Assembly: GCF_016859285.1 (NCBI RefSeq)
Contig: NC_053418.1
Location: 6,990,521 to 7,054,520, forward strand
Direction of reading: 5' to 3'
DNA: 64,000 nt
Origin: Xiphias gladius
Taxonomy: Eukaryota > Chordata > Actinopteri > Istiophoriformes > Xiphiidae
Part shown: positions 33,201 through 62,579 of the stretch, piece after piece
Position numbering within the stretch: the stretch's first letter is position 1
Layout: every line of letters begins with the position of its first letter
Made by a program: the position numbers and the translations under genes
The notes under the pieces: model-generated
Seen by the model: the letters and a program-made list of their open reading frames with translations, nothing else
What the model was told of the DNA's origin: nothing
The model's database searches: none

Positions 33201-36200
33201 TCATCTCTGACTCCGTGAGGTCCAGCAGCGAAACCACCTTGAAGTTTAGCTGCCGCAGGAGGTTGGTGAGGTCGTACACGTCCACCATGGGAGCTTTGAG
33301 CTGCGGGTGGTTCTGGTAGGACAGATTGCCGATCAGCAGGGCCACTTTGTCAGTCGCTGGGGGGTTGACATGGGAGCGGGAGAAAAACTCAAAAAAACTC
33401 GTGCATGATACTGTGCATCAATGAAGCATCTTTTAGAACTGAAAGGGGAATTGGAAACATAAAATAATTCTCAAGAAGGCAGTGTTTACTGCGATAGCTA
33501 TCAAGTCCAGTCTGCTGCGAGGAGTACAAAGTGTCCTTGACAATACTGTGGCTTTAACACAATGATCTCCAATCACCGTACCGTGTATTTTGAGGTTCTC
33601 TCCGATGTAGAATACATACTGTACATACGAATATAATAGAAAATAAAAATAAAAGTATCACTAAAAAAAAACAAAAACAAAAAACACCACAGTTACCACA
33701 GACTTTCTGGTTGCAAACTCTTTCACTGTCTATTTAACAGAGTCTGCTAAAGTCAGTTCACTGGCTGAACTACAAGTACAGGAGGAGGACAAAATAAATG
33801 AGACTACAGGCCACTACTGATGTCAATATCTGACAGTTTGAAAACTCAATAAATATATATTGGCACATAACATAACAGAAACAAATATCTTTTGACAAGG
33901 AGCCATAACATGTGTTATTAAAGAATTGTGACCAAGATATGTACTGAGCCGGATGACGGAACAAAATAGTGCTTCACATTACAATACGAGAGTTGTCCTG
34001 CAGAAGATCTGGTGGGGCTCAAGGATGTTGTTTTTTATTGAAGCTGCCAGAGGTATTAGTTCAACTCTACACAAACTTTTAAAGCAGTCTGTGTTGGCGA
34101 GGATTTATTTAGGTTTTTCTCCTTCCCACATTGACCCATCTCGACATGGATTCAGTCTATTAAATGTGTGTTGATCGTTGTCTTTTTGTATCCTTTTGTC
34201 TTGCTTTGACTCTATATCCTACTTTTCATGACGTACTGCTTCATATGTTACAAGTGAGGAAGAAATTCAAAAACACAGCTGACGTGTGGCTCACAGGAAC
34301 CCATGCATCAGCTATGTTCATTTCTAAAATATGTAGAAAAAACACACAGTCGATAGCACAGGGATCGATTCATAATTCACTTACACTTAAAGAGGCGTGT
34401 TGAAAGACACTCACCATAAAGTTGTCCTGGAATACTATTCAGGAAAAGTTCACTGGAACCTGAAATAAACACACAATAAAGGATCATATAGCAAGCAAAA
34501 TAGAATATAGCGTTTGAATAGAAAGTATGTATAAATATTTGAAGAGTACAGTTACACTTACTTCCTCCGATGGCGTAAACATCATCTAGGAATCAAAAAT
34601 ATAAATACATCACCATCACATAAGATTTTTCAGTTGTTTTTAGAAAAATGTTCTACTGATTCGTGAAAAAATGATCAAAAGGAAGGCAAGCCTCACAGCA
34701 ACAGCAGTAGAGATGTCGAATCAATTTATCATAATTCAATTTACAGATTAAGACAGGCATTATTCTATGTTTTTCTCATCTTCAACAAATCCTGTGAAAG
34801 GCCAGCAGTCAGATAGTCCATCTCTCTGTATTTTTTCACTACTTCCCTACCCTGCGTGCGCTAGCCTCAAATTCATTGGTTCCCACGAATCACATTAATA
34901 GTTAGGTCATTCATACGTGGTTTCTTTTTTGAAAAAGGCTCCGTAATTTCCTAAAACAGCTGGGCGCTGTAGTTTCTAGCAAACGTTACACAAACAGGAG
35001 AAATTTGGGCTTTTCTTGGAGACGATTTTCAGCTGCATATTAATACACATTTTGTGGTCTAGTGAGTATTTACAGCAGTACCAGGATGGCATAGGTGGGG
35101 TTGAAGCAAAATAAACCGTGTTTATTATAACAAATAAACAACAATTCAGTTCAGAGGAATAAGCTATATGTGGCTTTGATACACAGATAATACTATAGGA
35201 TTAGCTTAGCAAGATCAATTCAGTGTTGGTTTTGGTCCTTTCATGGGATTTGTTGACAGAAAGACAAATATAGACTACTACCCTCCTGAAAACAATTATA
35301 CTAGTCAAATCAAAATGTATGCAAGTGGAACCTGGAGATGAAACCCTGTGAACCTTGCGCTGGGTAGTGTTAACATAATAATAATAATCTGGGTCCTGAC
35401 CCACATGCAGTTACAGGAACTATTTGGGGTTTTGAGCAAAGTTATGATTAACAGTTGCATGCAGCTAATTGCCATTTAATAAGCCGTGTATCAGGCCTTT
35501 CAACTCTACCTTCAGAGAACTCCATTGCCCCTGAAATCTGGACAGATATCCTTGGTGCTTTCAGTCAAGAACAGAGCAAATAATCACTCAGACATAATGA
35601 CAACAGAGCTGGTTTTACTGGGCTGTAATTATAGCGTCAAAAAATGTACCGAAGTGTGACATACCTACGACAACATCAACTTCATTGGTCCACATTCTCT
35701 CAGTGCTGCTGCTGATCTCACAGCGATACCTGCCGTGGTGATCCTGCATCACGTGAGGGATCTGAAAAGCACGGACACTGTTTATGGCGCCTTGTTCCCT
35801 AGAAAAAGATCTAGATCTTTGATTAGTGAGCAAGGGTGACTGTCAACAATTACGTGAACTGCAAAAGTAAACTCCAATGTCTGGGAGCAAAACAGATACC
35901 AGTTCATGCGTTTTAACTTCTGACAACTATAAGCAGAGAAAACAGTTTCCAAACAAGAAAGAATTTTTGTAACAGTAACATCTAATTCATTCACCATGAA
36001 TTTCCTCTTTGTGCCGTTGAGGATCGGGACTCCATTTCTGTGCCACTGGTATCGAGGGATTGGCCGTCCCACGGCTCCACACTCCAGCTGAAGGGTTTCC
36101 CCGACATGTAGCCGCAGGAACTGAGGCTGGATCACCAACTTCAGCCGACCGTCTAGGGAATGGTAACTCTGCCCTGGTGCTGGGGGGCAGACGTGACATC

Positions 36201-37707
36201 ATTAGGTCATTATCTACTGCATCCAGTTAGAAGATTTCTGCTTCAGCTGGTGTTGGGAAAGGTACTAGAGTCACGGGTCCAATTACATGTCTAGTCCCGC
36301 AACTGATGCTGACACCTCAAGAATATGTAAAAAAACAACAAAAGCAGTTCAAGTGTAAAGAGAAAAAATGAAAATACATGTACAGACAGAGAACATGAAG
36401 AAGGAAACAGCTGTGACAAATGAGACTCTAATGCCTGCAATATCTTACCACATGACGTGACATTCAGGACGTCCACCTGAGCCCATTGGCTGAATTCAAA
36501 AGTATCTCCACAGTTGACCCTACAAATGTAAAAGCCGGCGTCCTTCAGGTGGACTGGACTTATCACCAGGTCTGGGGAGAAGCTGTTTGACACCTGAGGT
36601 TGTGGAAATGTGAATCATATTTACCAATAAGCAAATCTCATTTCCTTATCCCCGCTTCTTATTCACTCTCGGCTACTAGTACTACTACTCTACTACTCTT
36701 TTCAGAAGTTGTCTTGTATCCCAGTGTATCTCATCGAACACATGAGCAGCGATGTAGGGTTTTAGTGTCCCAGCATGAATGCCAAAATGCAGTTTCAGAG
36801 GTTTTGCCAAGCTGCGAAGAAAACATTATTCAGGGCCGAGCAATCCACACGTGCAAATTTTGTGCATGAAAATGTTCAAATTCAAAGATACAGAATGCTA
36901 CTGTTCCCTTTAGAAATTTTCGATGGCAGGGTTTAAGGAAAATTGTTTCAGATGCTAGTGGAGAAGGGGAACAGTGATTAGATGACTGTGTCCAGTTTGC
37001 TTTCAGTGGCTCGACATTTATGTTTAACGTAAAATGCAGCAGATTCGAAGGTTATAATGTGAGTATTTTTGTGATTTTTAAAATTACGAGCCTGTTTAGA
37101 CGCCCGGCTCCCTCACTGCGGGAAGAAAGGATGGATGATAGTCAGAACTATTTTGTCAAGATTTAATCTGCTAAACTACAGAAGAGAAGAGTTTATGTAT
37201 TTAATCCACCTTTTGACACTGCAGGTAAGTTTAAGTGCAGGTAAAGATTTTTATCTAAGCTTCTAACAGGGCCACGAAAACCCAGAAAGGGACGATAAAG
37301 TTCATAAAGCTGTAGTATTATAGACACAGCAAAGAGTCATGAGTAGGCATTTGCTTTGTTTTTGGGTATCTGAGCCAGGAAGATGGAGTATCAGTGACGA
37401 AGATTTCAAGCCTAAACCTGTGAATTTGGCACACCAATAGCAGGAATATCACTCCCTTCTTTTTTTTTCTCCTGTAAATTTCCTTCAAGTGCTGTGGCCA
37501 GACCCTACTGTTTTAGCGAATAAATTTCAGGGATACTGGTGAACAGTCACAAACGTTTCTGACAAAATATTTAACAAAAGAACAAAGGTATGAAGAAAGA
37601 AGAGGATGTGACGCAAAATAACTAATAATCACTCATAATCTCAGCATAAACAAAAAAAGAAACTAAAACACAACAGACACAAAGAGGTCTTAACACAAAC
37701 AACTTAC

Positions 37708-37762
<55 letters not shown>

Positions 37763-40143
37763 TGTATGCGTGTGTGTGTTTGGTTGTATCAGGGAGGGTC
37801 ATACTCGCCTCTTCCTTACTCTTGAACCACTGGTACTGTACTGGAGATTTGCCCATCGCGTGGCAGCTGAGGCGCAGATTGTGGCCAGATATAAGAGCCA
37901 CTGACTGGGGCTGAATGAGAATCTGCAGGGCTGAACATTCAGGAGACTTGCACTGTTAATTCCCACTTTGTCTTATATCGGTACACTGATTTTAGATGGG
38001 TAATACCCACAGCAAAGACAGACAGCTTCTGTGTAAAGCCTACATTTATTGTTTCATATTAAAATGAATGTGTATCTGGGATTGGCTCCAGCCCCAATGT
38101 GACCTTCAAAAGGATAAGACATGCAGCTAATGGATGGATCGATAGATATTAAAGTCACCCAAGTGGGTTAAGACGAAGTTTTAGTTTCCCAAAAGTGTTT
38201 AAAAGCAATACTGTCATTACCACCCCACCAGTAATACAATTCTGCAGTTTAAACATAATCATATGTGTCCTCTTTCAAAAAACGCAAACTGATTGAACAC
38301 TGACAGGCTTGTACACTGCTGCACTGGCGGCAAACCTGCCAAAACCATTTCTACTATATCAGCAACTCAATACCAAATTTTGAAATGTAATCACTACTGA
38401 ATACTTAGTGTTGAAATTTAAATGCCACTGAACTTTTTCGCACTTAAAACATTTGACTTTGAAAAACCTCCTTTCTGAATTTATGTGGTGTGAATTTCAC
38501 TTTTTGAAATTCCCAAATTGTGCAATTTCAAAAACTTTATTCTTAATACATACAGTTAGGTATGTGAGTATTTGGACAGTGACTCACTGTTCAAACTTTT
38601 CCTCTGTAAACCACCACCATCAAGCCATATATGGACCCATGGGTTCCAGACATCAGGCACGTTTTGTTTGCAAAGGATTTTCAGTATAAAAAAGTATAAA
38701 AAATAATCCTTATAGTTATTTAAGTTTGTCCAATTACTTTTGAGCCTCTGAAAATGAGGGACTATGTACAAACATGGCTGTAGATCCTAAACAGTCGATG
38801 TGATATTTTTGTTAAACCCCCTTTAATTAAAGCTGAAATCTACACTTCAATCACATCTTGATGGCTTTGTGTCAAACCCATTGTGGTGGCGTACAGAGAC
38901 AGAATTACAAAAATTGTCTGACTGTCCAAAATACTTACGGACCTAACTTTGCGCCTGGTCAAATTCAGACGCTAAAATTCAGGGTACAAAATTCAGTTCT
39001 GAACGTCAGGTACACCAAGGGAAAGCAATCAAGCCTGAAGGGAATCGGTCCGACCTCTGAGCTGGCAAAAACTGTCCAGACTGGCAAAGATTTCAGTGCA
39101 ATAAATTCAGTGGTGTTCATAGTATTCAGTTGCTGATAAAATTCCATGAAGACTGTGATGTGAATCATAAATTCCCCTTTAAGCTTAAAAACACAACACA
39201 GAGAACAAAGATCAAACTCCGTTGGACGCCAGACAACATACTAACAGGCCCGGGGGCGGTTCCACTGTACCTGACGTTTTCAGGCACTGCACGGCCTCTG
39301 AGTTGCCCAGAGTTTGGAGGTAGTCCATCAAGTGACCCGTGGTGCAGCCTCGCTCTCCCATCAGCCTCAGCAGCATGCGGCTCGGGCTGCCCTCCACCTC
39401 CAGCACCTTCAGAGAGCACATCTCCATGTCGTTGGAGCTGGGGAACGACAGCACGTCATATGCCAGAGGTATGAGTCAAAAAACAACTCAGCTTGTCAGT
39501 AGCTCTAAATATTAATTACACAAAGTGAAAAAGACTTCACTGTTCTCTTCTTTGTCATGTAGGACAGTAAAATGAACACCTGTTCAGGTGGACTGTTAAT
39601 CAGATGTGACAAAAAAAAAAGACATTTGAAGACATTTCCCACTATTTTCTGACATTTTAAAGACAAAACCATTAACCAGTAAATCGCAGAAAAATATTTG
39701 GCAGATTCATTCAGAATGAAAGTGATCATTAGGTGCAGCCCTAGTTTCATTTACTTGGAGTTATACATTTATTTGTTTCAGAGCCTCTATGCATAGGTGA
39801 GTATGTGGAAAGTATTCTCCGTACTATTAATATTATTAGCCTGTTGTTAAATAACACAAAACACCTCTCTGTATTATTTAGGACAGCACCGCCGACTACA
39901 GTATCACAACTGCAGCCCATTACGGTGACTGTCTGCAGGATACGGTCGGACCCATTTGTCAACCCACCTGACTTTAACCCGCCTCTCGTTGCCGACTATC
40001 TCTCCGAGTTTTCGCCATCCTTTGCTGCTGGACTTGTCCAACACCTCGCAGAGCTTCCTCACGACCGGCTCCTTCAACAGGTTGATCTTTGTGGACCGGT
40101 CCAAAGAATCCGACATGGCAGCCAGCGAGAAAAAGTCTAGCAT
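27216..40143 (-). CDS. malt1: MALT1 paracaspase
   Basis: MALT1 is the protease and scaffold of the CARD-BCL10-MALT1 complex that drives NF-kB signalling downstream of immune receptors. Sixteen exons are read on the minus strand: 39968-40143, 39271-39437, 37809-37930, 36449-36593, 35995-36173, 35665-35761, 34562-34585, 34415-34459, 33153-33356, 32282-32459, 31420-31491, 31197-31324, 30328-30477, 28818-28975, 28344-28469 and 27216-27707 (TGA). All phases agree, giving 820 residues (human 824). Domains in order are: death domain (about 15-110), Ig1 (VQYQWFK ... CRVN), Ig2 (PRYQWHRNG ... YRCEI), paracaspase with catalytic His394 (YYAGHGYE) and Cys443 (LLDMCRKR), then Ig3 (ALEIRSSLSERRALTDP, GAQIKLGFAAEFSNV). 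The His-Cys spacing of 49 equals the human spacing. A C-terminal PIEASD motif fits a TRAF6 site. Either ATG at 40143 or ATG at 40116 (nine codons later) could start translation. Intron 3 appears to use a GC donor. Confidence 0.96.
27273..27290 (-). other. Candidate TRAF6-binding motif in the MALT1 C-terminus
   Basis: Residues 797-802 read PIEASD, fitting the TRAF6 consensus P-x-E-x-x-(acidic/aromatic). They sit where human MALT1 has its C-terminal TRAF6 motif (PVETTD). Conservation of place and pattern is seen; binding is inferred. Confidence 0.6.
27960..28160 (+). repeat. Unit of the 'ggatggattgccatgaaatt' dispersed repeat in malt1 intron 15
   Basis: Shares 'aactcaacaactactg', 'gtgaaattcatgttgcccagagggtgaatc', 'gactttggtg' and 'tgaaatatct' with copies at 43060, 57440 and 61330. 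Confidence 0.6.
29195..29490. mobile_element. Short inverted-repeat element (MITE) with perfect 20-bp ends, in malt1 intron 13
   Basis: 29195-29214 reads CACTTTATTTTAAGTCCCCC, and 29471-29490 is its exact reverse complement. The 256-bp interior is AT-rich with no ORF. The perfect ends suggest a younger insertion than the other elements here. Confidence 0.8.
29530..29735. repeat. Dispersed 'cagcctgagggttgagacccc' repeat in malt1 intron 13
   Basis: Shares 'aaatcattagctcagaaatggtgagt' and 'aagatcccaagataaatctg'-type wording with the copy near 26030-26180. It lies directly beside the MITE at 29195-29490. Confidence 0.5.
31598..31885. repeat. 'cgattaatcg' family dispersed repeat in malt1 intron 10
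   Basis: Begins 'tgctgcaacgaatgactattttgac', continues 'acaaatgtcttgtcaaatg', 'aacagtccgaaacccaaaaatattcagtttac' and 'acatttgagaaggtggaacc', and ends in repeated 'ttgactaattgac'. Same family as copies in mrps30 introns and at 40700 and 58370. Confidence 0.7.
34562..34585 (-). other. malt1: 24-nt micro-exon of malt1 (exon 7)
   Basis: Flanked by an acceptor (TTGATTCCTAG) and a strong donor (GTAAGT), it encodes DDVYAIGG plus one base. Both neighbouring junctions are phase 1, so exon 6 joined directly to exon 8 keeps the frame. It sits between Ig2 and the paracaspase domain, where mammalian MALT1 has its alternatively spliced 33-nt exon 7. Confidence 0.7.
37708..37762. repeat. (TG)n microsatellite in malt1 intron 3
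   Basis: About 27 TG units on the plus strand, so CA repeats on the malt1 sense strand, lying about 46 nt inside intron 3. The repeat made a long frame appear to run on past exon 3. Confidence 0.9.
37803..37808 (-). other. malt1: Probable GC-type splice donor of malt1 exon 3
   Basis: The exon ends GAAGAG and the intron begins GCGAGT. Only this site gives phase 0, which exon 4 (starting GTGTCAAAC) requires. The nearby GT sites (AAGA|GTAAGG and GCGA|GTATGA) would leave the wrong phase. Confidence 0.55.
39590..39745. repeat. Fragment of the 'cgattaatcg' family in malt1 intron 1
   Basis: Carries 'agacatttgaagacatttcccactattttctgacatttta' and 'gcagattcattcagaatgaaagtgatc', matching the family's consensus wording. 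Confidence 0.55.
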
Positions 40144-40215
40144 CTAGCGCGTTTCTGTCAGACCGGAGAGACTCGTATTACCATCGGGCGATAATTCACT
40201 TCAAGACAAAACACA

Positions 40216-40247
<32 letters not shown>

Positions 40248-42640
40248 TCTACTTCCTGGAAAAAATGATTGAAGTGATACAGACACACCTACTGCTCTGT
40301 CTTGGTTTTCCCCCCCACACGACTGCGGGCAGCCTCTGACAAAGATTATATATGCATCAAGATAAGAGCCTGTAGGGAAAACGTTTGGCTAACATGTTGC
40401 CCAAAAAGAACCTAAAGTCAAGAGCTTAAAGATCACTTTTTACCACTAAACCTTTGCTACCCTGTAGTAATTACACACTATTCAAATGAGCTACCTGACT
40501 CATAGGGAAATAAGCCCAGAGCTGTGGTAGAACTGAGGCCTATGCCACTTTTTAGTCGTATTTTGCTTGCCGAGCTACATACGACCTGATTAACCTTTGA
40601 AGAGGCCCCAGCGCAAAAAATTGTTGCTGAGCCACTATTGGCTCCTACTATGCATTGCAGTTTTCATTACTTCCCGTGGCCACCCAGAAACCAAGCAATA
40701 CTCCAGGGCTAAAATGATTAATCAATTAGTCGACTGACAAAAAATGTATTGGCAATAATTGATTAATTGTTTAAGAGTAAGTTATTTTTTTTCCCTAAAA
40801 ATGGTAAAAATCCACTTGTTCCAGCTACTCAAACGTGACTATTTGCTAGTTTTCCCAGTTTTTTATGAGAGTAAACTCAGAATCTTTGGGTCTTTGGGTT
40901 TGGCAATTAAAATATGTTAACTTGGGCCTTGGGGAGTAAAGATGGACATTTTTGAGTATTTTCTGACATTTTATACACTGAAAAATCAGTCGATTATTAT
41001 AGAAAATAACTGTCAGATGTATCGATAATGAAAGTAACTGCTGATTCCTTACGGTACTCCTATGTCTGAAAAATACTTCCTTGCCTGAGATTTTCTTTCA
41101 CTTGACAAACAGAAAAAAATAGAAGCAATGTGATAAAGCATAACAGTTAATGTCTTAAAACTAGATATCCCTCTTCAAGACCAGGGGCACAAGATGCAGG
41201 AACCGTCATAGTTGATACCGTACTTAAGACGAGCAAATTTCAAACAAATATGCGATTAATCAAATTATGTAGCCCTAAATGATATGGCATGAACCTGGGG
41301 CTTTTGGGGCCCATAGAAAGTTGCAATTGGCAGTTGTATGTAGTGTTTCAACTCAATGATTAAACCTTAAAAGTGCTTTGTATTTGTATTTGTAATTGCA
41401 TTTCAGACTTGTGCATTTGATTATTTTTCAGTTACTACCTACTGTGTTAATTAAAATTTTTAACAAACCACTAGTTTGTCCATTAACTGCTAATGCTAGC
41501 TAGTTAACTAGGCTAGATTCCGATAACCGTTATTTGTTTCTTTGTGTCTTTTAGATAATTTTTGACAATTTTACATTAAATGTTTTTTTTTAAATGTGTT
41601 TTTTTAAATATATATATACATATATGACCAGATATAAAACAAATACTGTTGCCATGGATTCAGTGAGCGACACTGTGGGCTACAACTGGAGCCCCAATTT
41701 TTTAGCCCGAATTTGTTTACATTTTGGAAAATTAAGTAAGCCGAACTCATTATTAACATTTCATGTTTGCTATGTACCATTGGATGTACTGACAACTTTC
41801 CCTGACACTTTGATACTGGGCAAAACTTAAAAACGTGATTATTCTCAGGTCAATTCTGCATTAATAAGGAGTGTTTTGGGTTTTTTTTCGATTTTCAAGT
41901 GGGTTTATGTATGTTTATCTGGATAGACATCTGAGATAGTGATATCGTCAGAAACTGTAAGTCCCATTGAATCTAAAAATCTGTGTATCATGTCTGTGTT
42001 CACATTTGACTGAGTTATGACTCCACTTGACACAAATTGCAGTGGAAAACTGCTCAGTGTGGAAACATTGAATCGGGTCAAATTGAGGCATCTTGCTCTT
42101 TCTGGCCGTGTTCAGGTCGACAGGGTCGTGGAGAGAAACAAATCCCTCCTCTCCATCACGACACCACAGTTATGATGTAAGGACTCTTCTTCATATCGTA
42201 TCGTATCGTATTATACCTGAGACGCCCCAAATGCCAGGTATGAGTTGTTCTCTGTTTTTTCCTGTCCCAGGATAATTCTGAAGGGTAGCAAGATGACTAA
42301 CACAATATGAAGGCAGAAAACACATACTTGTGCTACAGCAAATTATGTTTATTTTGTCCGTGCTTCTTGTGACGTTTTCACACACACCGAGCGGAATTGA
42401 AGGTAGGGCCGTCATTGACAGAGCTCCGCCCCAGGCCACACACAAACACTCCAGACGGAGGTGTTCCTTCTAACACCTGATTGGTTGATAAATGAAAACA
42501 CAAACCTCAGAGGGAACTGCTCAGCTTCAGTGTTTGTTGGTTTGTGTGTCTGTGTGCTCTAGTTAAATATGTATTGTTTATTAGTACACAGGTCATGTGC
42601 TTCACCCAACTCAACTGCTAATGTCGTCCCCCACGCTGAT
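40144..42640. other. Intergenic region between malt1 and the prlr pseudogene
   Basis: The malt1 promoter should lie at the left end. The first 70 bp are CpG-containing and no TATA box is evident. 40700-41045 is a 'cgattaatcg' family repeat. 42180-42210 holds a short 'cgtat' run. No gene is seen. Confidence 0.5.
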
Positions 42641-42649
42641 GGTTCTTCT

Positions 42650-45515
42650 AAGCTGTAGAATCCACCAGAGCTTTTGTGCTGGGCCCCGAGTGCAAGCACT
42701 CCCTTACCGCCCCCTGGCAACGGCACCCCTCGGGCAGACAGGCTAAATCCAGCCCTGGTAGACAGGCGAGTGAAAAACTACCATCTCTCTTGTCGGCTGA
42801 CTGAGCACAAATCTTTGTTCCTGTGCAAGTTACCCTGCAGACTTCAAACACTGTGTGACCTTTACGCGCCCATGCCTGAGGGCAAAATGCCAATACTGAT
42901 AGTTTGGTACTTTTTCACTGATAGATGATATTCAATAACTTTCAGTCTGACCATTTTCATGTTAAAAAAAAAGAGGATTCTGTCTTTTTGTACAGAATTT
43001 TATTCTTGTCAAGTTTTCGAAGACTTTGCACTTGTAGAGGAAATTGTCATTTACAGCTGTTCCTGGGATTGATTGCCATGAAATTTTGTACAGACATTAA
43101 TGGTGCCCAGAAGGTGAATCACAATGACTATGGTGATCCACTGACTGTTCCTCCAGCACCACCACCTGTTAGAAGTTTTCACATACCCAGTGAAATATCA
43201 ATAACAAAAAGACACAAAATTACTACAAAGAAATACAAAATGATCACAAAGAGACACAAAAGGACTAGAAAAAGAGACAAAAAAATTACCACAAAGAGAC
43301 ACAAGAGAGACACGAAATGACCACAGAAACGAAAACAACTACAGGGAGACACAAAACGACCACTGTGACACAAAATGACCACGGAGACCAAAACAACCAC
43401 AAAGAGAAACGAAAAGACCACAAACAGACATAAAACGGCTGCGTCATTTGTAGCTGTTTTGTATTTCTTTCAATCTGGGTGTCTTGCTCCTATGTAGGAG
43501 AGGTGGGGGGCCTTTTACATCTTTGTCCCCATTGTCTCATAATCCGTCCATGGTATAAAGCCACCATTAGTTGAGCCCTGTGCTTGTTTATTAAGAACTA
43601 ACAGGTATTTACTGCCCACAGCACAGTTATACAATGTTGTAAGCATATGCAAGCAAAATGCCGTCAGCAGTGTTCACCCATATCCTGGTCAGTAAAGGTC
43701 TTGTTTTGTCTACGTACAGAATGGAGGGAAGGCGCGGCAGGGAGGAACTCCTGTTTCTTTGACAAGGAGCACACCTCCATCTGGGTCGATTACTACCTGA
43801 CAGTGGTGGCCTCCAATGCCCTTGGGAACGCCACTTCAGACCCCTTTAAGATGGACGTAATGGAAATCGGTGAGTTGTTGCTCCCAAAGCTAAAGGATTT
43901 AGATGAGATGAATGAATCCAACCTCAGGAGAGAGACACCGAGAATGTTCTGATTCCTGTTCACTGACACAGATGGGCCCCTGTTTCTAATAGGTGCACTA
44001 AAAACAAAAAAAAACAAAATTAAAAATATAAACATCAACGTAATTCCATCTGTATTTACAGAAAACAAAAATGCACAATAATACAGATGGTAAAGCAACC
44101 TTCTGCATACATACAATAAGCTCTGAGCTGCTTGTAGAGTTTTTTTTGGGGCTATGACAAATACGTAGCATATGATTCCTGTGGGTTTGGCTCTGCACTG
44201 TACTACTTACTGTACAATCAATATAAAAAGCAGTGACCTCCCTTTGACTTCATGGATTGTTGCTTTACAACACTGAAACACAGTGGTTATCATTAGGATT
44301 TTGTGGCACTGATTAACTGTGAGTCTAAGAGACTTATTTATTCAAAATAAAAAATAAAATAAATGATTAATAATAATGAAGACTAGCTTAATCTGCTTAG
44401 CTCAACAGTGTTTTTGTGTCAGTGCCACACTTTGAACTATTGACTACTACTCGATCTGTGTATTAATTGGAGTAGAAGTTAACACAGCAGAAAACTACCG
44501 GTATTGACTGAGCTAATGGTTGGCACAGTTTTATTGGCCGTGCAGCTTTCTTGAGCTTAGTAAAGAAGGGAAAAGTACTACCTGAAAGACACGAGGCACA
44601 ATGAAAACCTGCAAAGAATGAGACTGAACTGGTTTGTGCCCAGTGTAAAACTTGTGTACAGTCTCGGACAGTACTTGGATCAAATTTCACGCCATTCGCT
44701 TGGTCATACAGGCAGTTGCATATGCGATCTACTTGCACTGTATTTACAATACATTTGGAGCAGGGTCTTATGCCATGTGAGGAAATAGTAACTCCACTGC
44801 ATCAGATTTTGTCTCAGGAATCTAAACTTGCTCTGTATCAAAATATTTTAAACCATTTCCTGCGATAGCGGGGCCTCCTCTAACCACCCCACACGCTGCC
44901 ATGTGTGAGACTAAGCCCAGTAACAAGCAGGTTACTGTGCATAGCACTTGGTTACTGTGATTACTCCCATCAAAACACTCATTTACAACTGTAGTGTGAC
45001 CTAAATTTAATCTGAACTGGGGTAAAAGGTAAATATAGACTGGTTGTTTTCTCTCTGTAATCGCATTTCAGCTACAAAACCCCATTTCAGCCTGTACACT
45101 GTCAGTCCTCCGGTGATGTACACGGATGGCTCCTGGAGCAACTATTCCAACATGAAAATCCCCAGTGGTAAGTCTCAGATGTTATTTGCTCGATCTTTGG
45201 CTTTTACAAGGAGGTGGCAGGTTAAAGTACTAATACCTTAATTATTGAAAAATTATTCTTTTTTTAAGTATGTAGTTTATAGCACGTATCTCCTGCAAAA
45301 AAGATACAGGGTTAGAGGTTAAGGTAAAGGTATAACTTTTCATATAAAGTCAAGACGATAAGGACATTCTGACTCATGAATCACTTCCTTTTGTTTCTCA
45401 TTGTGAAGCAGTGTTTTCTGCCTCCTGCTCCTGGACCTGATAGCAATCTACCGAAAGGCGATGAGAGGTGACAGTGTTGTCATCCTCCAGAAAGAAAATG
45501 TTTGTGACTGAAGAC
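42650..45515 (+). pseudogene. Broken partial duplicate of the prolactin receptor gene
   Basis: Colinear with the intact prlr about 12.5 kb to the right. 42650-42900 matches intron sequence at 55530-55720. 43720-43869 is a copy of the third coding exon ([20 protein letters not shown] readable), but 20 nt are missing after its first 11 bases, so the frame breaks. Intron sequence continues to match closely to about 44830. The exon for the second fibronectin domain's first half is absent. 45073-45168 is a shortened copy of the WSXWS exon, here reading WSNYS. The transmembrane exon is missing except its last bases. The box-1 exon copy near 45409 has lost its acceptor (CAT for CAG) and runs into a fragment of the last exon ('gtcatcctccagaaagaaaa'). 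It cannot make a receptor. Confidence 0.88.
43060..43440 (+). repeat. Dispersed repeat unit followed by a degenerate tandem array
   Basis: 43060-43200 matches the 'gattgccatgaaattttgtacagac' family. 43200-43440 is an imperfect array of roughly 20-bp units like 'aaaatgaccacaaagagacac'. Confidence 0.7.
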
Positions 45516-48959: not shown

Positions 48960-49426
48960 ATGGTAGCTGGATGCCAACTACCGTTATTTATTCTTGTTAT
49001 GTCCCTCGGTCTTTCTATTTGCTCGCAGTTGGAGGGACGACACCTGCCAGTGTTTCCGCGGCGACACGCTGTTTGCAACGTTGCCAATGGAACAGCACCG
49101 AGGGAACGTACGGAAACGAAATCCCGCCGAAGTGAGACATCTCGCCCCGGCCGCACTCTTTGGCTGTTCTCAGGTGGGCAAGCCGGGACGACAGCAAACC
49201 CCTCCCCCCACCCCGCGACGCGGAGGACACCTCGGTTCCTCCTATCGTCGCCGTACCTGCGGTGTCAGACCCGCCGGTCGCCGGCTGTGAGGTGGTCGTC
49301 TGGCGCAGTGTGGCGCATGGCTGAGGGCGGCTGCCCTTTTCCGCCCGTGGTCGTGTCGGCGCCCGCCGGACCTAGTTCAGACACCGGGGAGCGAAGGTCG
49401 GAACCCGTCCTGACTTGGTGTGTGAG
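48960..49426 (+). other. GC-rich, CpG-dense putative first exon of prlr, copy A
   Basis: The stretch to 49426 is rich in CpG against an AT-rich background and ends in a strong donor (GTGTGAG|GTGAGTGG). Position and strand suit a 5' non-coding exon and promoter of prlr. A 156-codon frame runs through it, but its composition is that of a CpG island and no family is recognised. Confidence 0.45.
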
Positions 49427-50495
49427 GTGAGTGGACACAAGAGGTGGTTAATGTGTGTGTTCTCGTAGGTAGGTCTGCAGGGAGAAGACACAACATGAAC
49501 ACCTAGCTGTAATGCAACAAATGTAACAATGTGCATTTATGCAGGTTTACTACCCTTAAGATGATTAGAGTAAGATGTTCAGTTGCTATTGAAAGGGCCG
49601 TTTAACCGTGTTGTAACCTAAGTTTGTGTGGCCATATGATGACATATTGGATTGTTGTGCAGTGCTTTTCTATCATTCTGTCAACCAGGGGGAAACTGGA
49701 GTCAGTATTTTTTTTATTTATTTGTGAAATGTTTAAATTGTTAATGGGGATTATTATAGGCTTCTCTTGCTGTTCGTTTCTAATCGATTAAAACCGAAAG
49801 ATTTTACACCGAGAAGGGCAGTTTATAGAGAGGGTGATGAAGATTTCACAATCTCTGTGGTACTGCCCAAGCAATAATGAAGTAACACACTGAATGGTAC
49901 ACCATGGACAAATACTAACATAACAGTAGAGTATTTCAGTATGTATCTTCCCAGTCATCCAGATGTTTTTTTGTTTTTTTTTTCTTTTTTTTTACGCGTC
50001 AAGATGAGCCACTGTAGACGAACATGTAGACATTTTTGTGATTCAAAACTTAACTGAATGATAATTGTCAAGTTGGCCAAAAGGCTCGGGGCTGAAGGAT
50101 TCGGGGTTTAAGAGTTTCACTCTTATAGCTTTTAGTTTTTCAGATATCCATCATGTTTCATCATGTTTCGCTCAATCCCCATAGAAAACCATTTAAAAAA
50201 TTCATTAGAAAAAATTCACTTCAAATTCGATGTTACTATCTCCTTAAACATACTTAAACATTTTGGTTTTGGGATTATGTTTCTAGCTGCAAGCGTGTAG
50301 GACTAGTAGGTCGTCAAAAAAAAGGGACGGAATTAAATAGTTAAGAAAGAAAAATAAAGAGTGAAGATGACAAGCAGTTTATAAATGGATTTTGGTCCAG
50401 ATGTCCTGCAGGAGGATTTTCCTCAATCTGGTAACCTAAAAGTTATTCTTCTGAATGCATTATAACTGATCTATGAGGCTTTAATATAGCTGCCG

Positions 50496-50962
50496 ATGGT
50501 AGCTGGATGCCAACTACCGTTATTTATTCTTGTTATGTCCCTCGGTCTTTCTATTTGCTCGCAGTTGGAGGGACGACACCTGCCAGTGTTTCCGCGGCGA
50601 CACGCTGTTTGCAACGTTGCCAATGGAACAGCACCGAGGGAACGTACGGAAACGAAATCCCGCCGAAGTGAGACATCTCGCCCCGGCCGCACTCTTTGGC
50701 TGTTCTCAGGTGGGCAAGCCGGGACGACAGCAAACCCCTCCCCCCACCCCGCGACGCGGAGGACACCTCGGTTCCTCCTATCGTCGCCGTACCTGCGGTG
50801 TCAGACCCGCCGGTCGCCGGCTGTGAGGTGGTCGTCTGGCGCAGTGTGGCGCATGGCTGAGGGCGGCTGCCCTTTTCCGCCCGTGGTCGTGTCGGCGCCC
50901 GCCGGACCTAGTTCAGACACCGGGGAGCGAAGGTCGGAACCCGTCCTGAATTGGTGTGTGAG
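50496..50962 (+). other. GC-rich, CpG-dense putative first exon of prlr, copy B
   Basis: Same as copy A, 1,536 bp downstream, with the same donor. The GC-rich core differs at very few positions, so both copies could serve as alternative first exons. Confidence 0.45.
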
Positions 50963-51519
50963 GTGAGTGGACACAAGAGGTGGTTAATGTGTGTGTTCTC
51001 GTAGGTAGGTCTGCAGGGAGAAGACACAACATGAACACCTAGCTGTAATGCAACAAATGTAACAATGTGCATTATGCAGGTTTACTACCCTTAAGATGAT
51101 TAGAGTATGATGTTCAGTTGCTATTGAAAGGGCCGTTTAACCGTGTTGTAACCTAAGTTTGTGTGGCCATATGATGACATATTGGATTGTTGTGCAGTGC
51201 TTTTCTATCATTCTGTCAACCAGGGGGAAACTGGAGTCAGTATTTTTTTTTATTTATTTGTGAAATGTTTAAATTGTTAATGGGGATTATTATAGGCTTC
51301 TCTTGCTGTGTTTTTCTAATCGATTAAAACCGAAAGATTTTACACCGAGAAGGGCAGTTTATAGAGAGGGTGATGAAGATTTCACAATCTCTGTGGTACT
51401 GCCCAAGCAATAATGAAGTAACACACTGAATGATACACCATGGACAAATACTAACATAACAGTAGAGTATTTCAGTATGTATCTTCCCAGTCATCCAGAT
51501 GTTTTTTTGTTTTTTTTCT

Positions 51520-52917
51520 GTTTTGGGAGAAATCATGATAATGTAGGATTTGAAGTACAGCTTGTTGTCTGTCATTTCTGCCAAGAGATTTTATCGTAGC
51601 GACTCAGAGTAGAAGCACAATAGTACCGACTTCTTTTGGTTCTGATGTAGGACCAAATTAAAGATAATTATTTTTCTCAGTATTAATTATAATGTTTGTT
51701 CAGCTCCAGCCACTTAGTTGCGTCATTTAAAATAATGGCCGTAAGGTTTGGGACTCTGTTAGAATTAAAAAATGTAAATCTGCAAATAGAATGTTAACTA
51801 ATATTTAAGTTAATATAAAATAGTATTACCCCAGACACGCTGCGCAGTCTGAGTGTAACAGTGGGTATTTATCTTTAGGTATTATTTTGACATCTAGGCA
51901 TCCTTGTCTTATGTCAATATTGAGAAATAGCCCTCATCCAGATCCTGCCTTGCTCAAGTGATCCTGTTAAAACTTGTCGGAGCAGGTGGCGTCACTTGAA
52001 ACTGAGCTATCGTCACTGTGTTTACTGTGCGAGAACAAGAAAAAAAGTCGGTGAAAATGTGTAACTCCTTTGTGGCATCCTGCAATTTACAGGCTGGTAG
52101 CCCGTGAAGGAAGCTCTCCCACACCTCTTCAGGTGACTAACTGCACCAAGCATTTCAGCGATGTTACATGGCGACGAGCAGGGAGGCAGAAAAGGTTATT
52201 TTGGAGTCTGAACCAGGGAGCATAAATCTGCCGAGTGCTCGCTCCCAGCCAATCACTCAGGCTCCAGTAAATTTCCAAAGAGCCCAAAAACCTGCAGAAA
52301 ACCAGCACAGGACATTGAAGCAAATAAGCATGTTATAGCTGAGTGTGTTGTCATTCTGTTGCCTGTGTGTGTGTGTGCGCGTGTGTGTGTGTGTGATCTT
52401 TATCAGTGGAGCTGAATAAGAAGTACAAAAAAAAAAAATGGTCTAGCATCAGTTTGGATTATTTCACAGAGCAACATCAGTAAGTAAAATGTGTTTAACA
52501 AATCTGATTAAGTATTTATCCTTAGGAATCAACATGTATTAGTGGATTATATTCCTGAAATGAAGATCCAGATTTGTTAGTTACAGATTTAATAAAGTAC
52601 CACCAGGATAGAGCACAATCCACAGTTCACAGCTGTCACAGTTGTCTGGCTAATTCTGGTAAATCTAGTTTTTTCTGAAACCAGCTGCTCCAGCATTTGG
52701 GTGACGTTGCAGATTCCTTCGTTAATGAAAACTGATGAAAGGGCTGTCTGTTGCTGTCAGTCACATCAAAACATGGATGTAAATTTTCACATATTTTTAA
52801 CGGTATATCATGTTTCATCAGCATGTGATGACCGTAGTTGACCTCTATGTGTTGGCTACAACATGGACAAATAATTATTGTTTGTGTTTGTTGTTCTTTC
52901 ATATGCCCTTGTTTTAG
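51520..52917. other. Upstream region of the prlr start exon
   Basis: Mostly AT-rich intron-like sequence with a (TG)n tract at 52363-52394. An acceptor (CCTTGTTTTAG) at 52917 would open the exon that contains the prlr start codon, with 102 nt of leader before the ATG at 53020. Confidence 0.45.
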
Positions 52918-53019
52918 GTAAAAACAAGACACCACAGCCAAGCCACGGGATCATATCACCTCATTAACCGCATGCTGGTGACACTTTTTCGGGCCCACAA
53001 TGTGACAGTTTGTGCCAGG

Positions 53020-56000
53020 ATGAGGAGAGATCTTGGGCTGGCACTGCTCCTGCTGCTGTCTGCAGCTGTGGAGTCCGACAGTAAGTCCAAAGAGTTGAAG
53101 GACATTATCTTTGGCTAAATAGTAACATGATGTTTAAAGGCTGGGTTCACTCAAAATAGAAAAAAAAAAAAAAAAAAAAAACCCAAAACAAACAACAGAA
53201 AAATACCTCAAATGGAATATAGACATAGACATGCAGATAGTTTTGGTTTTTATTTATATAAGTTTTAGAATTTTCTTCGGTGCTAACAGCATTGAAAAAA
53301 TAACATTGAAAAACAACTTTTATTTGATCAATTCTTTCCTGTTTTCCCTATTAAACCCAATTAAATAATATGTATATAAATATAGTAGTGGACTAATATA
53401 GTGAAAGAAAAGGAAGAAAATAATTACATAAAAATCTTGTAAATCTTACAGGTGTTACAGGTTTTAACAACTTTTTTGTTAGTACAATTAGCTATAGATT
53501 AAATGTATCGTTTGATATAGACAGTAAGTTCAGAAAAATTGGGCATTTTTGCTTGTAAGTTTTGGTTTGTGAATATAAAACTTGGACAAAATAACAAACA
53601 AATTAATTAAATGAAACTGAGAGCAAGCCTTCCTGTCATAATCCCTACATTTTTCCAAAGTAATGTAAATAGAGGGTATATATGATCAGCAAGAAAACGT
53701 GACAGTTTAGTCCACAGTTGTTTTCTATTCAATTCAATTCTCTCTCCAGAAACACTTGTCTCTGATACTCTCAACTCACTCTTAACAGCTTTAATTTTCA
53801 CTTTCTACCAAAGAAATAAACTACATCCTAAAGCCCCTTTACGACCATTTTATTACAGTACGATGGCATTTTACATGTCGGTCTCATGTCTGAATAAGCA
53901 CTGGAGTACTTAAAATAAAAGTCACAAGGGCAGTCTTACTACATTAGACCTTGTAACATGTCCATGAATTCTTCAAAAGGGCACGAATCTGAATTGAATT
54001 TCACCAGATTAACATAAAGACTAAAATAGAACTTTCACTTGCCTCACGAAAGTTAGATGAGAAGATTGATTCCACTCTCACGTTACATCTTCTTCGTTTA
54101 ATCCATACAAAAAAAGGTGTAAAAACTAACATTCCCTGTTGGTCGTCTGGCAAAAGCTCAGAGCCAAGAAATGGTCGGTTTAACTGCAAATTTGTCGTTT
54201 TTTCACTTTGTGTTTTTGTAGAATTAAAATGTAGTTAAAATGGTGTTTCCCCCCCCTTCATGGTTGGTTGAGGGCTAATGTTAGGTTGTGGTTAGGTGGA
54301 GCAGAGATAACTGGTACGGGTTTGGGCAAGCTTGGGGTCAGGTCAAGCATCTAATAAAAGGACTGGTTGGGGTTAGGGATGAGGTTTTGTTTAGATTTAA
54401 GTTTAGGGGAAGTTGCGAGGATAATTTTAGATTGGATTGCACACATGAAAAATTAGACGCAAATTCGGAGGACTGGCGCTAGGATGGGACCGCGGAAGAG
54501 GAAAATATTAAAACTTTAACTAATCAATGGATTTTATGAATCTGCTTCATAAACATACAGAGACAAAGGGAAACAAGAGAGACTTGAGGGAAATAACAGA
54601 TTGAATTGCAAGGCTGAGCTACAGACACATGGTTGGTGCTTCCGTTTCATGCTAGCTAACGGACTGCTAATGGGTGTGCATCACTGTATTAAGTTTCTCG
54701 CTTAGGTATCCTCTCCTATGCTAAAAGAAAATAAAATCATTTTAACAAGCTGAAAACTGTTCACAGCTTCTCCTATGGATCATGCAGGCTATTCAGAAAA
54801 CAATGGAAGATAGAGGTCACTGTTGAATTTTTCAAGTGAAAGTTTTCAGTGCTGGGAGCACAAATTCATTTAGCCTTCACTGACCTGGGGTGGACAAAGA
54901 AACCTTAGAGTTTGCTTGCTTGTATCATGTGTTGCCAGGCATGTCTCCACCAGGGAAACCAGTCCTGCTCGGCTGCAGGTCCCCTGAGAAGGAGACGTTT
55001 ACCTGCTGGTGGGAGACGGGCTCTGACGGAGGGCTGCCGACTACGCACCACCTCTACTACGAGAGAGAAAGGTCTGTCCAAACACCAATTTTTTTTTTTG
55101 TTCTGTCTTCATGCCTCTGCGGCTGCAACAGCTGTGGCTGGAGACAATTTCGTTAAGTCTGGCACAAATGTCAATTTGGACTCAAGGATGAACTGATTAG
55201 AATTTGGTGGTCAAAGGGCAAGGTCACTGTGATCTCACAAAAAATGTTTTTGGCCATAACTCAAGAATACAAATGCTAATTATGACAAAATACACTTAAT
55301 ACCCTTTATTTAATTCCTTATTTAATTTAAGTCTTCACTACATATATTATATGAGTCTGGACAGACATGGATGTAAACTGCAACTTGACTGGTTGGCGGA
55401 AGCATAAAACCACGAGGTGGTAATTGTAGTTTAATGTAATATTCAATTCAAGATTATCTTGGGCATTTTGCCTTTATTCAACAGATCACAGTGGCGATAC
55501 AGGGAAGGTGAGGGAGAGAGAGAGAGAGAAGAGGAGAATGAGTGGAAAACTACCAGCTCCCTTGTTCACACACTTGTGCTCAGTCATTCGAGCACAAATC
55601 TTTGTTGCTGTGGAAGTGAACGTGCAGACTTCAAACACTTGACCTGTGTGATCCTCACTTGCCCTGGCCTGAGGGCAAAATGCCAATAGTGAGAGTTTAA
55701 GACTTTTTGAGGATAGCGAAAAGTCTAGACTACTTTGGTCTAGACTAAAACATCTCAACAGCTGCTGGATGGATTACCACAAATTTTTGCACAGTCTTGG
55801 GGCAGTCAACCTGTGCCTAAGTACAGCCTCACAGAGCCACTCATGGCTTATTAATAAGTAGCCTTATTAATTCATAAAGTTTGGTAAAATTTCTACTTTT
55901 TAAAAAAATTCAGTTTAAATGATTAGATACTAATGTATAGTTTGACAAAATTAAACACTTTAGGTTCACAAGATCTGAAAAATTTCAAAAATTGTATTTG

Positions 56001-59000
56001 ACATTTTATTTAGTTTCTTAGAAGATGACATTTGGGATCATGTTGCAGCGGTCAGTGAGGAGACCATGGGGGCATCACACCTGGCTCATATCAGATTATT
56101 ATTATAAAACCACTATCACTTGAGCCCTGTACCTGTTCATTGAGTGTTAACATGTATTTACTGCCCACAGCACAGTTATAGAGTGTTGTATGCGTATATA
56201 AGCAAAATGCCCTCAGCAGTGTTCACGCATATCCTGGTCGGTAAAGGTGTTGTTTTGTCTACGACCAGAATGGAGGGAACGCAAGAGTGTCCAGACTACC
56301 TCTCGGCAGGGAGGAACTCCTGCTTCTTTGACAAGGAGCACACCTCCATCTGGGTCGATTACTACCTGACAGTGGTGGCCTCCAATGCCCTTGGGAACGC
56401 CACTTCAGACCCCTTTAAGATGGACGTAATGGAAATCGGTGAGTTGTTGCTCCCAAAGCTAAAGGATTTAGATGAGATGAATGAATCCAACCTCAGGAGA
56501 GAGACACCGAGTATTTTCTGATTCCTGTTCACTGACACAGATGGGCCCCTGTTTCTAATAGGTGCACTGAAAACAAAAAAAAACAAAATTAAAAATATAA
56601 ACATCAACGTAATTCCATCTATATTTACAGAAAACAAAAATGCAGAATAATACAGATGGTAAAGCAACCTTCTGCATACTGACAATAAGCTCTGAGCTGC
56701 TTGTAGAGTTTTTTTTGGGGCTATGACAAATACGTAGCATATGATTCCTGTGGGTTTGGCTCTGCACTGTACTACTTACTGTACAATCAATATAAAAAGC
56801 AGTGACCTCCCTTTGACTTCATGGATTGTTGCTTTACAACACTGAAACACAGTGGTTATCATTAGGATTTTGTGGCACTGATTAACTGTGAGTCTAAGAG
56901 ACTTATTTATTCAAAATAAAAAACTAAATAAATGATTACTAATAATGAAGACTAGCTTAATCTTCTTAGCTCAACAGTGTTTTTGTGTCAGTGCCACACT
57001 TTGAACTATTGACTACTACTCGATCTGTGTATTCATTGGAGTAGAAGTTAACACAGCAGAAAACTATCTGTATTGACTGAGCTAATGATTAGCACAGTTT
57101 TATTGGCTGTGCAGCTTTCTTGAGCTTAGTAAAGAATGGAAAAGTACTGAGTGACAGAAAACCTGCACAGAATGAGATGGAATTGGTTTGTGCCCAGTGT
57201 AAAACTTGTGTACAGTCTTGGATCAAATTTCACACCTTTTGTTTCGTTATGCAGGCAGCTGCGTATGTGATCTCCATGCACTGTACTTACAATACATTTG
57301 GAGCAGAGTCTTGTGCCATGTGAGAAAATAGTAACTCCACTGCATCAGATTTTGTCCCAGGAATCTAAACTTACTCTTTATCAAATATTTTAAACATACC
57401 GAATTTTCTGTTTTTTGCGGCATCTTAAAGACAATGGCAATTTTAGTCTTTTGGTCAGTCCAGACTGAAATATCTCAACAACCATTGGATGGATTGACAA
57501 ACAGCGATTAATGATCGCCAGATATCAATCCTAATGACTGTGACCTTCTGACCTTTCCTGTAGCACCACCAACAGGTCAGCTTTCACTTATCCGCTGAAA
57601 TATCTCAGCAAATATTGGATGGATTGCTACAAACATTCATGTCTCTCATCAGGAGGAATTTTAACTTTGGTTATCCACTGACTTTTCAGGCCAGAATTTC
57701 AGTCGGTCCAGTGCTTTGGTTTATAATTAAATAACTGCAGCTGTACTTTGTTTATAGTGCCAATTAGCAAATTTAGCATGCGAATATGCTAAACAAAGAT
57801 GCTGAAACTGGTATACATTATCCCTGTAAACATCAGCATGTCAGTACTGTCATTATGAGCATATTAGCAAGCTTACATTAGCCTTTAGCTCAAAGCACTG
57901 CCGTGCCCATGTGCAGCCTCACAGAGGTGCCAGCGCGGCTGTGGACTGTTATTCTTGTTCTGTCTGTGCTCGACAGTGAAGCCCAACGCTCCTGAAAACG
58001 TCACTCTGCAGGTGATAGAGAGAGAGGACAATCCATATCTCCAGGTCAGATGGGAGCGTCCTCATAACACAGACACCAAGTCCGGCTGGGTCACCATTAA
58101 ATATGAACTAAGAGTCAAACAAGAGAACAGTGACGAGTGGAAGGTGGGTCCAAAACAAGTAGTAGTTCATTGGAGAAATGTGCTGCACATTGTGTTTGTT
58201 TTGAGCAGGAAAGAATAGCAAGAGCCTTTTAAAAAGGTTCAATCTGTGGTTTGCAGCTTTCACTGTCAAATGGACTGGCAGGACTTTTTGCAGAAACCAA
58301 CAAGACACAGTAACTAAATCCAAATTATTATTTTAAGTCATGTTGTTATAGTTTTGTTTTAGAGCTATACAGATTAGCTGATTTTTAAATTGAGTCAACC
58401 GACAAAAAAAATCTGCAATATTCCTCTATGATAGCAAACTGCATATCTTTCAATTTTGGACTGTTGGTCAGACAAAACTGTTCACTTGGAAGCATCACCT
58501 TGTGCTCTCAGAAGCTGTGGTGATAATTCTTTCGCCATTTTCTGACATTTTCTGGAACAAAAAATGTATCTAAAAAAGATTAATTGTCAGATTAATTGAT
58601 GATTAAAATAATTGAGTTGTATCGCTAGTGTATTCACATCAGTTATGTTCGTTAACAGCAACACAGGCCTATGTTTTAAGTTATAATCAGCTGACAAATT
58701 CCGTGTGACCGAACGCCCCCTCTGACTTTGTGTGAGCCATTTTTTGCACAGTGAAGGGTGAAACAGGCTGCGCCTACAGGACAGGGACTGCTGTAAATTC
58801 CTCTTAAAAGACAGTTTACAGCAGTCAACTGTACAGTATGTTACGTTGTAAACACACACTACCATACATGCTAAAAAAATCATGTATATACTGTGTATAT
58901 GTATCAAAGGTTACTAAAAGACATCATAAACGGGGAAATATGGTTTGTTGACATTTGTTAATGTGAGGTTACCTTCCTTTTGAAAAACACAAAACAAAAG

Positions 59001-61214
59001 AATTTAATTTTGTGTGTGAAAATCGCATAAAATTAATGCCAGGGACTGGCTGGTAACAAATTGGAGGTTATAAATGGAATCAATTACAGTATTAAAATAA
59101 AATTGCTCATCTATAAAAATGACAGGACTCAGGAGGGGACATAAAAATGTCTTAGTTCCCGGCAGGGGGATTCAAAGACAAGGCCCCTCTTAGCAAAGGC
59201 ACTTATGATCTCGGATCAGTCAGGAGGTCCCTGCCGGAGGATCTGAGGCTGCCATCTGGTAAATAAAATGTTAAAAGTTCACAAGTTCAGGGCCACACCT
59301 ATATGTGAAGATAATCAGTAAGACTTTGAAACAAACTGAAAAATTCTACTGGTAGCAAGTGATTTCAGGCTAAGATAGGGGTCTTGAAATTGCTTCTAAC
59401 GCCTTGTGGCTGCATTTTAGACCAGCTGCAACTGGGAGATAGATCTGGCTTTGGTATTGATTGCAGCAGTCCAAATAGGATGCTATTAAACAACCTAAGA
59501 CCTTTCTTCAAGTCAGGTTAACCATCAGGATGTTATGTAGCCAGCCAGTAGATGGCAAAGACGGTGTTGACTCCAGGACTGTCCTTGCTGTGACTCACTT
59601 CCATTCTACACACTAACAGCTTGTAGTATGTACTATCCAAACATTTTCTTAGTATACTGTTTTTGCAGGTAGTATATAATAAATCAGTATGTCATGTAAT
59701 CAGAACCATCTTTGCAACGACTGTTAGACCCAATTGTGTGGGTAAAAGGTGAAGGTTGGGTGATTTGTGTTTATTTTGTCCTTGCTCGCTCTTTAGGAGT
59801 ACGCGTCAGGTACACAAACCCAGTTCAACCTGTACAACATCAATCCTGGGGTAATGTACACTGTTCAGGTGCGCTGTAAATTAGACCATGGTTCATGGAG
59901 CGAGTGGAGCAACTCTACCTCCGGGAAAACCTCTAAATGTAAGTCTCAGAAGTTATTTGCTCCATCTTTGGCTTTTACAGCGGGGTGGCAACTGTTACAA
60001 GTACTAATAATCAAAAAAAACATCTTTCTTTATTTAGATCCTCAGAATGAGAGACCATTCTGGATATTGGTTTCCACCCTTTCTGCAGTTCCGTTTATAA
60101 CAGCAATGTGTATCTTGGTGATGAAGAGGAAATAGTACGTATCTTCTGCTAACAAAGATAAACAACTCTTTATATAAAGTCCGGATGATAAGGAAAATTT
60201 GACTCATGACTCACTTTCTTTGGTTCCTCAGTGTGAAGCGATGTCTTCTGCCCCCTGTTCCTGGTCCAAAAATAAGAGGAGTTGATGTTCAACTTCTTAA
60301 GGTAACACTGCATCTGCACTAGCATATCCAAAAACTTGTTTTAACCATGATAATCTACTGAATTACCCCTAACCTTCCAGAGGGGGCGATCTGAAGATGT
60401 CATCAATGCCCTGATTGTGAACCAGAGCTTTCCTCTTGTGGTGGCCTGGAAGGACCAGATTGAGGACTACCTAATCGTGTCTGATGAGGGACTTCTGCCA
60501 AACCCCTCCAATTCTCAAAAAAGGAAGAAAAGCTTGATTATTCCCTCTGGCTTCCACGTAGACTTGGAAATCCAATGTAAGGAGTTAACCCCAGGCCAGA
60601 GTGACCGGGAGAAGGCTGAGGAAAGAAAGAATGATATAGATAACTTTGTAAAAAGCAATATGTCCCCTTCAGGGGAGAGGTTATCTAACATGGAGCCACC
60701 CCAGCTGCCAATTCAGAAACAGCTGTGCCCAAGTGTAAACTTTTCGAACACAGAGGCAGCAGATCAGAGTCTGTCATGTCATGATGGTGCTGCAAAGAAC
60801 ACTGTCCAACCTCTGGCAAACAGCGGTTATGTGGATATTCAGAGACATCAGAACATACGGGAGGCGGATTTGAAAGAGGTGGACTATAGCAGAGTGATGG
60901 AGTCGAAAGGTGACAATATTCTCATCCTCCAGAAAGAAAACGTCCGAGGCTACATGGACAATCGTAGACAAGAAGAGAACATACCAGAGGACTACAGCAG
61001 GGTGAAGGAGGTGGACAGTGACAATAAGGTTCTCCTGCAAAGACAAAATATCTCAGTTGACTCTTCCTGTAGGGAGAAGGGTAACCACTACACAGACTGC
61101 ACCAATAAGAAGCCAATAAATCCTCATGTAACTGGACCCAGTAAAGTGGGAGTGTGCACAGAACTAATCGGTAGTGGATACGTAGATACTATCCCTGCAC
61201 CACCTTTAATTTAA
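53020..61214 (+). CDS. prlrb: Prolactin receptor (b-like paralog)
   Basis: A single-pass class I cytokine receptor that signals through JAK2 and STAT5 after binding prolactin. In fish it has a central role in osmoregulation. Eight coding exons are read on the plus strand: 53020-53080, 54939-55071, 56269-56438, 57977-58143, 59797-59938, 60038-60134, 60232-60301 and 60381-61214 (TAA). All phases agree, giving 557 residues. A signal peptide ([16 protein letters not shown]) is followed by paired cysteines (33/43 and 72/83), WSEWS (211-215), a transmembrane segment (about 232-253), box 1 (LLPPVPGP, 262-269), and a tail with DYSRV and SGYVD motifs. The last tyrosine (547) lies in a conserved-looking C-terminus, [13 protein letters not shown]. 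An in-frame upstream ATG (52972) would add 16 residues before the signal peptide and is less likely. The b-paralog label is a guess; prolactin receptor itself is clear. Confidence 0.93.
54240..54936. other. prlr intron 1, right part
   Basis: 53081-54938 is intron. Nothing coding is seen. It includes 'gttagggttgaggg'-like low-complexity sequence near 54265-54420 and a poly-A run at 53160-53180. Confidence 0.4.
57430..57960 (+). repeat. Repeat units of the 'ggatggattgacaaa' family in prlr intron 3
   Basis: Two successive diverged units of about 120-140 bp ('atatctcaacaaccattggatggattg', 'gaaatatctcagcaaatattggatggattg', 'agcaccaccaacaggtcag'). They are followed by a tail with 'catgcgaatatgctaaac' and 'catcagcatgtcagtactgtcattatgagc'. 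Confidence 0.7.
58370..58620. repeat. 'cgattaatcg' family dispersed repeat in prlr intron 4
   Basis: Contains 'caattttggactgttggtcagacaaaactg', 'tttctgacattttctgg' and 'attaattgatgattaaaataattg'. Confidence 0.65.
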
Positions 61215-61329
61215 AGTTTTGTTTCATATGCAATGTCCAAATACAAATGACAGATGTCCCTAGTGATTTACTAGTGATTTTGTGATTGAAGAAAAAGACT
61301 AGAGATATTCTATATTTTTGGTATCATTA

Positions 61330-62573: not shown

Positions 62574-62579
62574 AATAAA
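62574..62579 (+). terminator. Candidate poly(A) signal of prlr
   Basis: AATAAA, 1,360 nt after the stop codon. Other candidates are near 62280-62305 and 62929. Confidence 0.4.

Follow-up and report, generated by a model that had tools for sequence, protein, structure and literature searches.

How did two adjacent copies of a two-gene unit come to keep a different gene each? The window analyzed here, a stretch of 64,000 nucleotides from Xiphias gladius that maps to C19 of the 691-Mb genome, contains malt1 (- strand) and prlr (+ strand) head to head, each of them twice. The first-pass annotation gave the order as intact malt1, broken prlr, broken malt1, and intact prlr, and held that after a tandem duplication each unit kept the opposite gene. 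The order holds, with malt1 recognized from several exons rather than from an exon chain stitched end to end (Table 1). Human MALT1 chains matched its p20 exon (4.8e-34) and a later caspase-domain exon (1.7e-14), one Ig exon scored above the Pfam cutoff and another below it, and the first coding exon was translated at 39967-40116; the end of the gene at 27216 is that of an open reading frame (ORF) taken to belong to malt1. The prlr of the second unit admits four splice models that stay open and disagree at two boundaries, and PRLR chains match its exons 3 and 4. The two prlr copies had been placed at 43720 and 56269, and exon 3 does start at these positions. When nine ORFs from the window were compared with Pfam, several had no match, including that at 48954-49430.

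Table 1. Features of the malt1-prlr locus, in window coordinates; for matches between the units, the partner in unit 2 and the offset (bp) are given
Feature	Position	Partner in unit 2	Strand	Offset	Basis or remark
malt1, unit 1, apparently intact	27216-40116		-		caspase-domain exons, Ig exon, first-exon translation
prlr, unit 2, intact	53020-61214		+		eight coding exons, one open frame
Broken prlr exon 3, unit 1	43720-43872		+		20 bp shorter than living exon, frame shifted
Broken prlr exon 5, later intron/exon pieces, last-exon piece, unit 1	45068-45501		+		alignment
Young core (prlr exon 3 and part of intron)	43735-44497		+		13/763 differ (1.7%)
Interval expected to hold the unit junction	45502-46006		.		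505 bp without recognizable homology
malt1 small-exon edge with acceptor	34428-34466	46007-46045	-	11579	
malt1 intron	35152-35446	47717-48009	-	12565	
malt1 5' end, probable	40237-40299	48378-48434	-	8141	
prlr intron	42768-42924	55540-55716	+	12772	
prlr exon 3 and flanking intron	43554-44853	56103-57395	+	12549	91% overall
prlr exon 5 anchor	45068-45123	59806-59861	+	14738	
prlr, exon 5 onward	45134-45437	59905-60267	+	14771	
prlr last-exon piece	45463-45501	60905-60943	+	15442	

Local alignment of 27000-46000 against 46001-64000, with E values up to 1, returned 20 matches on the plus strand and one on the minus strand. Eight of the 20 are collinear, and through them 34.4-45.5 kb pairs with 46.0-60.9 kb in the same order and orientation; the resulting diagonal includes the malt1 pieces at 46.0 and 47.9 kb. 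The probable malt1 5' end, the prlr intron, the stretch from prlr exon 5 onward, and the prlr last-exon piece are additions to the first-pass annotation. The other 13 rows (12 plus strand and one minus strand) were set aside: nine of the plus-strand rows link mutually repeating places near 28.0, 43.1, 57.5, and 61.5-61.8 kb, and the remaining three, like the lone minus-strand row, are isolated. The first-pass annotation had relied on equal offsets of 12.55 and 12.58 kb. These figures are correct, but the chain as a whole spans offsets from 8.1 to 15.4 kb, and the lower value lies between the very two points that were quoted; their agreement is a coincidence, insertions and deletions having cancelled out.

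The pairing is specific to the two units. Genome searches with three weakly conserved anchors (the malt1 intron, the prlr intron, and the prlr exon 5 region), in a procedure that skips very common words, matched only the partner unit (two of two candidates scored in each case), which argues against a shared dispersed repeat. The prlr intron at 42768-42924 has two matches, itself included, and 45060-45510 matches only itself and 59905-60009, while 43700-44700 matches both units and, over 89 bp of exon, a second prlr on C20. Both marks of a tandem segmental duplication, collinear adjacent pairs in the same orientation and unit-specific pairing, were therefore found. Moreover, the copies interleave (malt1, prlr, malt1, prlr), an arrangement that separate tandem duplications of malt1 and prlr would not yield; either a joint duplication or a later move is required. 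As judged from the sequence, the locus is an old and decayed tandem duplication of malt1-prlr.

The malt1 of unit 2 is broken: what survives is an exon edge, a piece of intron, and probably the 5' end. Small anchors such as these were scored against first-order Markov resamplings. The exon edge at 46007-46045 scored 27, compared with a maximum of 19 among 200 resamplings (0/200). The intron remnant, previously placed at 35296 and 47872, is present as a core at 35302-35446 in unit 1 and 47868-48009 in unit 2 (77-79% identity; 112 of 141 sites alike), and a genome-wide search that skips very common words matched only these two places. For the piece at 48378-48434 (44/56 alike), one of 200 resamplings equaled the score; weak when taken by itself, it is accepted as a probable remnant of the malt1 5' end for its position in the chain. 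The annotation had asked whether the malt1 matches might be explained by a shared dispersed repeat. This proved true of 47703-47838, beside the core, which is a dispersed element present in both units and found at no fewer than 38 other places (40 scored of 277 candidates), but not of the core, for which no further copy was found. That all of the malt1 remnants are such a repeat, and that prlr alone was duplicated, has on this account almost negligible probability: the single genome partner of 47868-48009 lies within malt1, and the exon edge at 46007 matches as well.

The prlr of unit 1 is likewise present in pieces. Its intron remnant at 42768-42924 is alike at 129 of 156 sites with 55540-55716, and the last-exon piece at 45463-45501 scored 29, compared with a maximum of 15 in 60 resamplings (0/60). 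Exons 1, 2, and 4, when sought in unit 1, gave no match above resampled controls, and the membrane exon falls in alignment gaps. In dead exon 5, 33 bp are missing, a loss that translated alignment places in frame; the exon is still open (45068-45235), with WSEWS reading WSNYS, and the pieces 3' of it hold stops. The open exon may hint that the unit 1 prlr stayed coding for some time. In the same region, 68 residues align at 49%, in a stretch that runs beyond the end of the exon.

Outside prlr exon 3, three pooled blocks differ at 97 of 540 sites (18%): 29/141 in the malt1 intron core, 27/156 in the prlr intron, and 41/243 in the prlr stretch after exon 5, which comprises introns and part of exon 7. 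Because the measured blocks are those that can still be aligned, 18% is a lower bound. Left out of the pool were the dispersed-element part (29/121), exon 5 (25/100), the malt1 5' end (12/56), two 39-bp pieces (6/39 and 5/39), and both shoulders of exon 3. The malt1 and prlr blocks outside exon 3 are equally diverged (29/141 versus 68/399; Fisher P, 0.37), as expected from one event, and together with the interleaving of the copies this upholds the earlier claim of a single joint tandem duplication.

The blocks are not all of the same age, however, a point overlooked previously: in the core of prlr exon 3, divergence is roughly one-tenth of that elsewhere (13/763 versus 97/540; P = 2e-26, a value to be taken as a guide, since the same data were used to fit the borders). 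A permutation test independent of the fitted borders found 11 differences in the 700-column window with the fewest, compared with a minimum of 20 in 5,000 permutations. The left shoulder of the core (26/181) differs to the same degree as the sequence outside (P = 0.30); the right shoulder (31/329) differs less (P = 0.0005, again with fitted borders) and may carry a trace of an older conversion. A sharp tract of high identity within a collinear older duplicate is the mark of interlocus gene conversion, and the core fits a conversion tract much later than the duplication. Conversion probably ran from the living prlr to the dead copy. In the living gene, exon 3 shares 64% of its residues with the prlr on C20, which is within the range of the other exons (70, 58, 45, 80, and 31% for exons 2, 4, 5, 7, and 8, respectively), so that a decayed donor is unlikely to have overwritten it. 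Furthermore, the left border of the tract coincides with the 20-bp deletion in dead exon 3, which points to a deletion that predates the conversion, in an exon by then already broken. Of the four outer ends of the 91% block, one has a simple-repeat array nearby (43204-43435) and another has multicopy matches (57461-57687).

The core might instead stem from a second recent duplication, or its likeness might have been kept by selection on a functional element. That it includes a coding exon speaks for such a reading, but the core sits at its collinear place between older anchors, its intron part is without a match in the C20 prlr (where the 89-bp match covers exon only), and a scan of 37,001 bases against Rfam yielded no match at the gathering score; we consider this explanation improbable. 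A more speculative thought, to which we attach still less credence, is that the dead prlr and the living receptor trade sequence in both directions, the former serving as a standing donor that could alter the hormone-binding exon of prlr in this lineage.

This leaves the manner in which the inner copies were broken. The best explanation, and one that we hold to be reasonably probable, is a single duplication with truncation at the breakpoints, followed by decay and later conversion. The head-to-head pair underwent one tandem duplication, as the collinear remnants show; the breakpoint on the left would have fallen within the 3' half of malt1, and that on the right at or close to the 3' end of prlr. 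The outer copies would have stayed whole and the two inner copies would have been cut at birth, subsequently decaying by deletion and insertion (the decay itself is observed); much later, about 0.76 kb spanning prlr exon 3 and a portion of the intron would have been copied from the living to the dead prlr by interlocus gene conversion. With malt1 and prlr in this orientation, breakpoints in the 3' part of each would by themselves give whole outer and cut inner copies. Consistent with this, the malt1 remnant of unit 2 ends at the small exon of 34.4 kb, and the part of malt1 beyond it (27.0-34.4 kb) had no collinear match in unit 2 by local alignment, only scattered translated hits in 40.1-56.0 kb (E of 0.007 or worse), and, in the junction interval, nothing that scored above controls (39 of 60 resamplings reached the score for 27000-34400). 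Three places in the genome match the p20 exon, and unit 2 is not among them. Since the 3' half of malt1 left no convincing trace in unit 2, a reciprocal loss of full copies need not be invoked; of the statement that each unit kept the opposite gene we retain that the opposite copies are now broken, a state that breakpoints could explain in place of full-copy losses.

Alternatively, the full malt1-prlr unit was duplicated, each unit then lost the opposite gene, and conversion came afterwards, a sequence of events that we regard as possible but doubtful. The joint duplication itself is established, large deletions did occur (the offset drops from 12565 to 8141 inside malt1), and a full-length malt1 copy that was deleted later would look the same as one cut at birth. 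The unit 1 prlr extends to some 270 bp short of the stop codon, so that it was nearly or fully complete and any cut in prlr was slight or absent. Against this, some 7 kb of the malt1 3' half is without a convincing trace while the 5' half is still represented by two or three remnants, and two independent losses are required, with a prior of one half that they be opposite ones. A point against truncation at birth is that the junction itself is not visible, lying in 505 bp devoid of recognizable homology: 45502-46006 gave nothing above resampled controls when compared with the prlr 3' end, the downstream DNA, and the malt1 3' half. Wider junction tests, whose scores have little power, came no closer than 11/100, and two further tests of the gap (6/100 and 4/100 resamplings) are suggestive only.

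The processes invoked here are of known kinds, and the locus is a tidy example of them. Divergent resolution, or reciprocal loss, of duplicated genes likewise ends with the opposite gene intact in each unit; unlike that scheme, a stage at which both units held both whole genes is only one reading here. A head-to-head pair can thus mimic textbook reciprocal loss, when duplication breakpoints alone give the same outcome. The human RCCX module comprises STK19-C4-CYP21-TNX, and its copies vary in number and are still 96-98% alike, apparently over CYP21 exons and introns (PMC8362596); unlike these, the malt1-prlr copies have decayed to patches, with the exception of one tract. A single tract of conversion can give a long-dead exon a recent look and so mislead dating; comparison of the locus among related species could also place the conversion in time relative to the duplication. 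A literature search joining malt1, prlr, and synteny found no paper.

Paralogues were also found elsewhere in the genome. Teleost prlr duplicates are termed prlra and prlrb (PMC11855606), and the present genome similarly has the second prlr on C20, for which six of the eight exons (2, 3, 4, 5, 7, and 8) were matched; unlike that pair, the broken copy at this locus was made locally, in tandem, from the C19 gene and is not the C20 prlr. Among tblastn hits within 50 kb, no malt1 exon lies beside the C20 gene. Two further malt1-like p20 exons occur on C6 and C8 (68% and 62% identity, respectively); these probably belong to other paracaspases, PCASP2 and PCASP3.

The surviving prlr had been said to use regulatory DNA of the second unit, and malt1 that of the first. 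By position this is so, and the claim extends no further than position. A comparison of the two intergenic regions, made with one copy of a 1.5-kb repeat, found no similarity above controls (35/40, 22/40, and 8/40 resamplings reached the scores). Upstream of prlr, 48442-51524 consists of two such copies, arranged head to tail and 98.8% alike. Each has a CpG-rich stretch (at 48990-49440, GC is 0.63 and CpG observed/expected is 1.04) with a donor-like GTGAGT after it. Within the 1.5-kb unit, positions 130-513 match dispersed elements; for the rest of it, only the two copies appeared among the matches listed (40 scored of 240 candidates). The repeat may reflect a recent doubling of the prlr promoter or of a first exon, or else be an assembly artifact.
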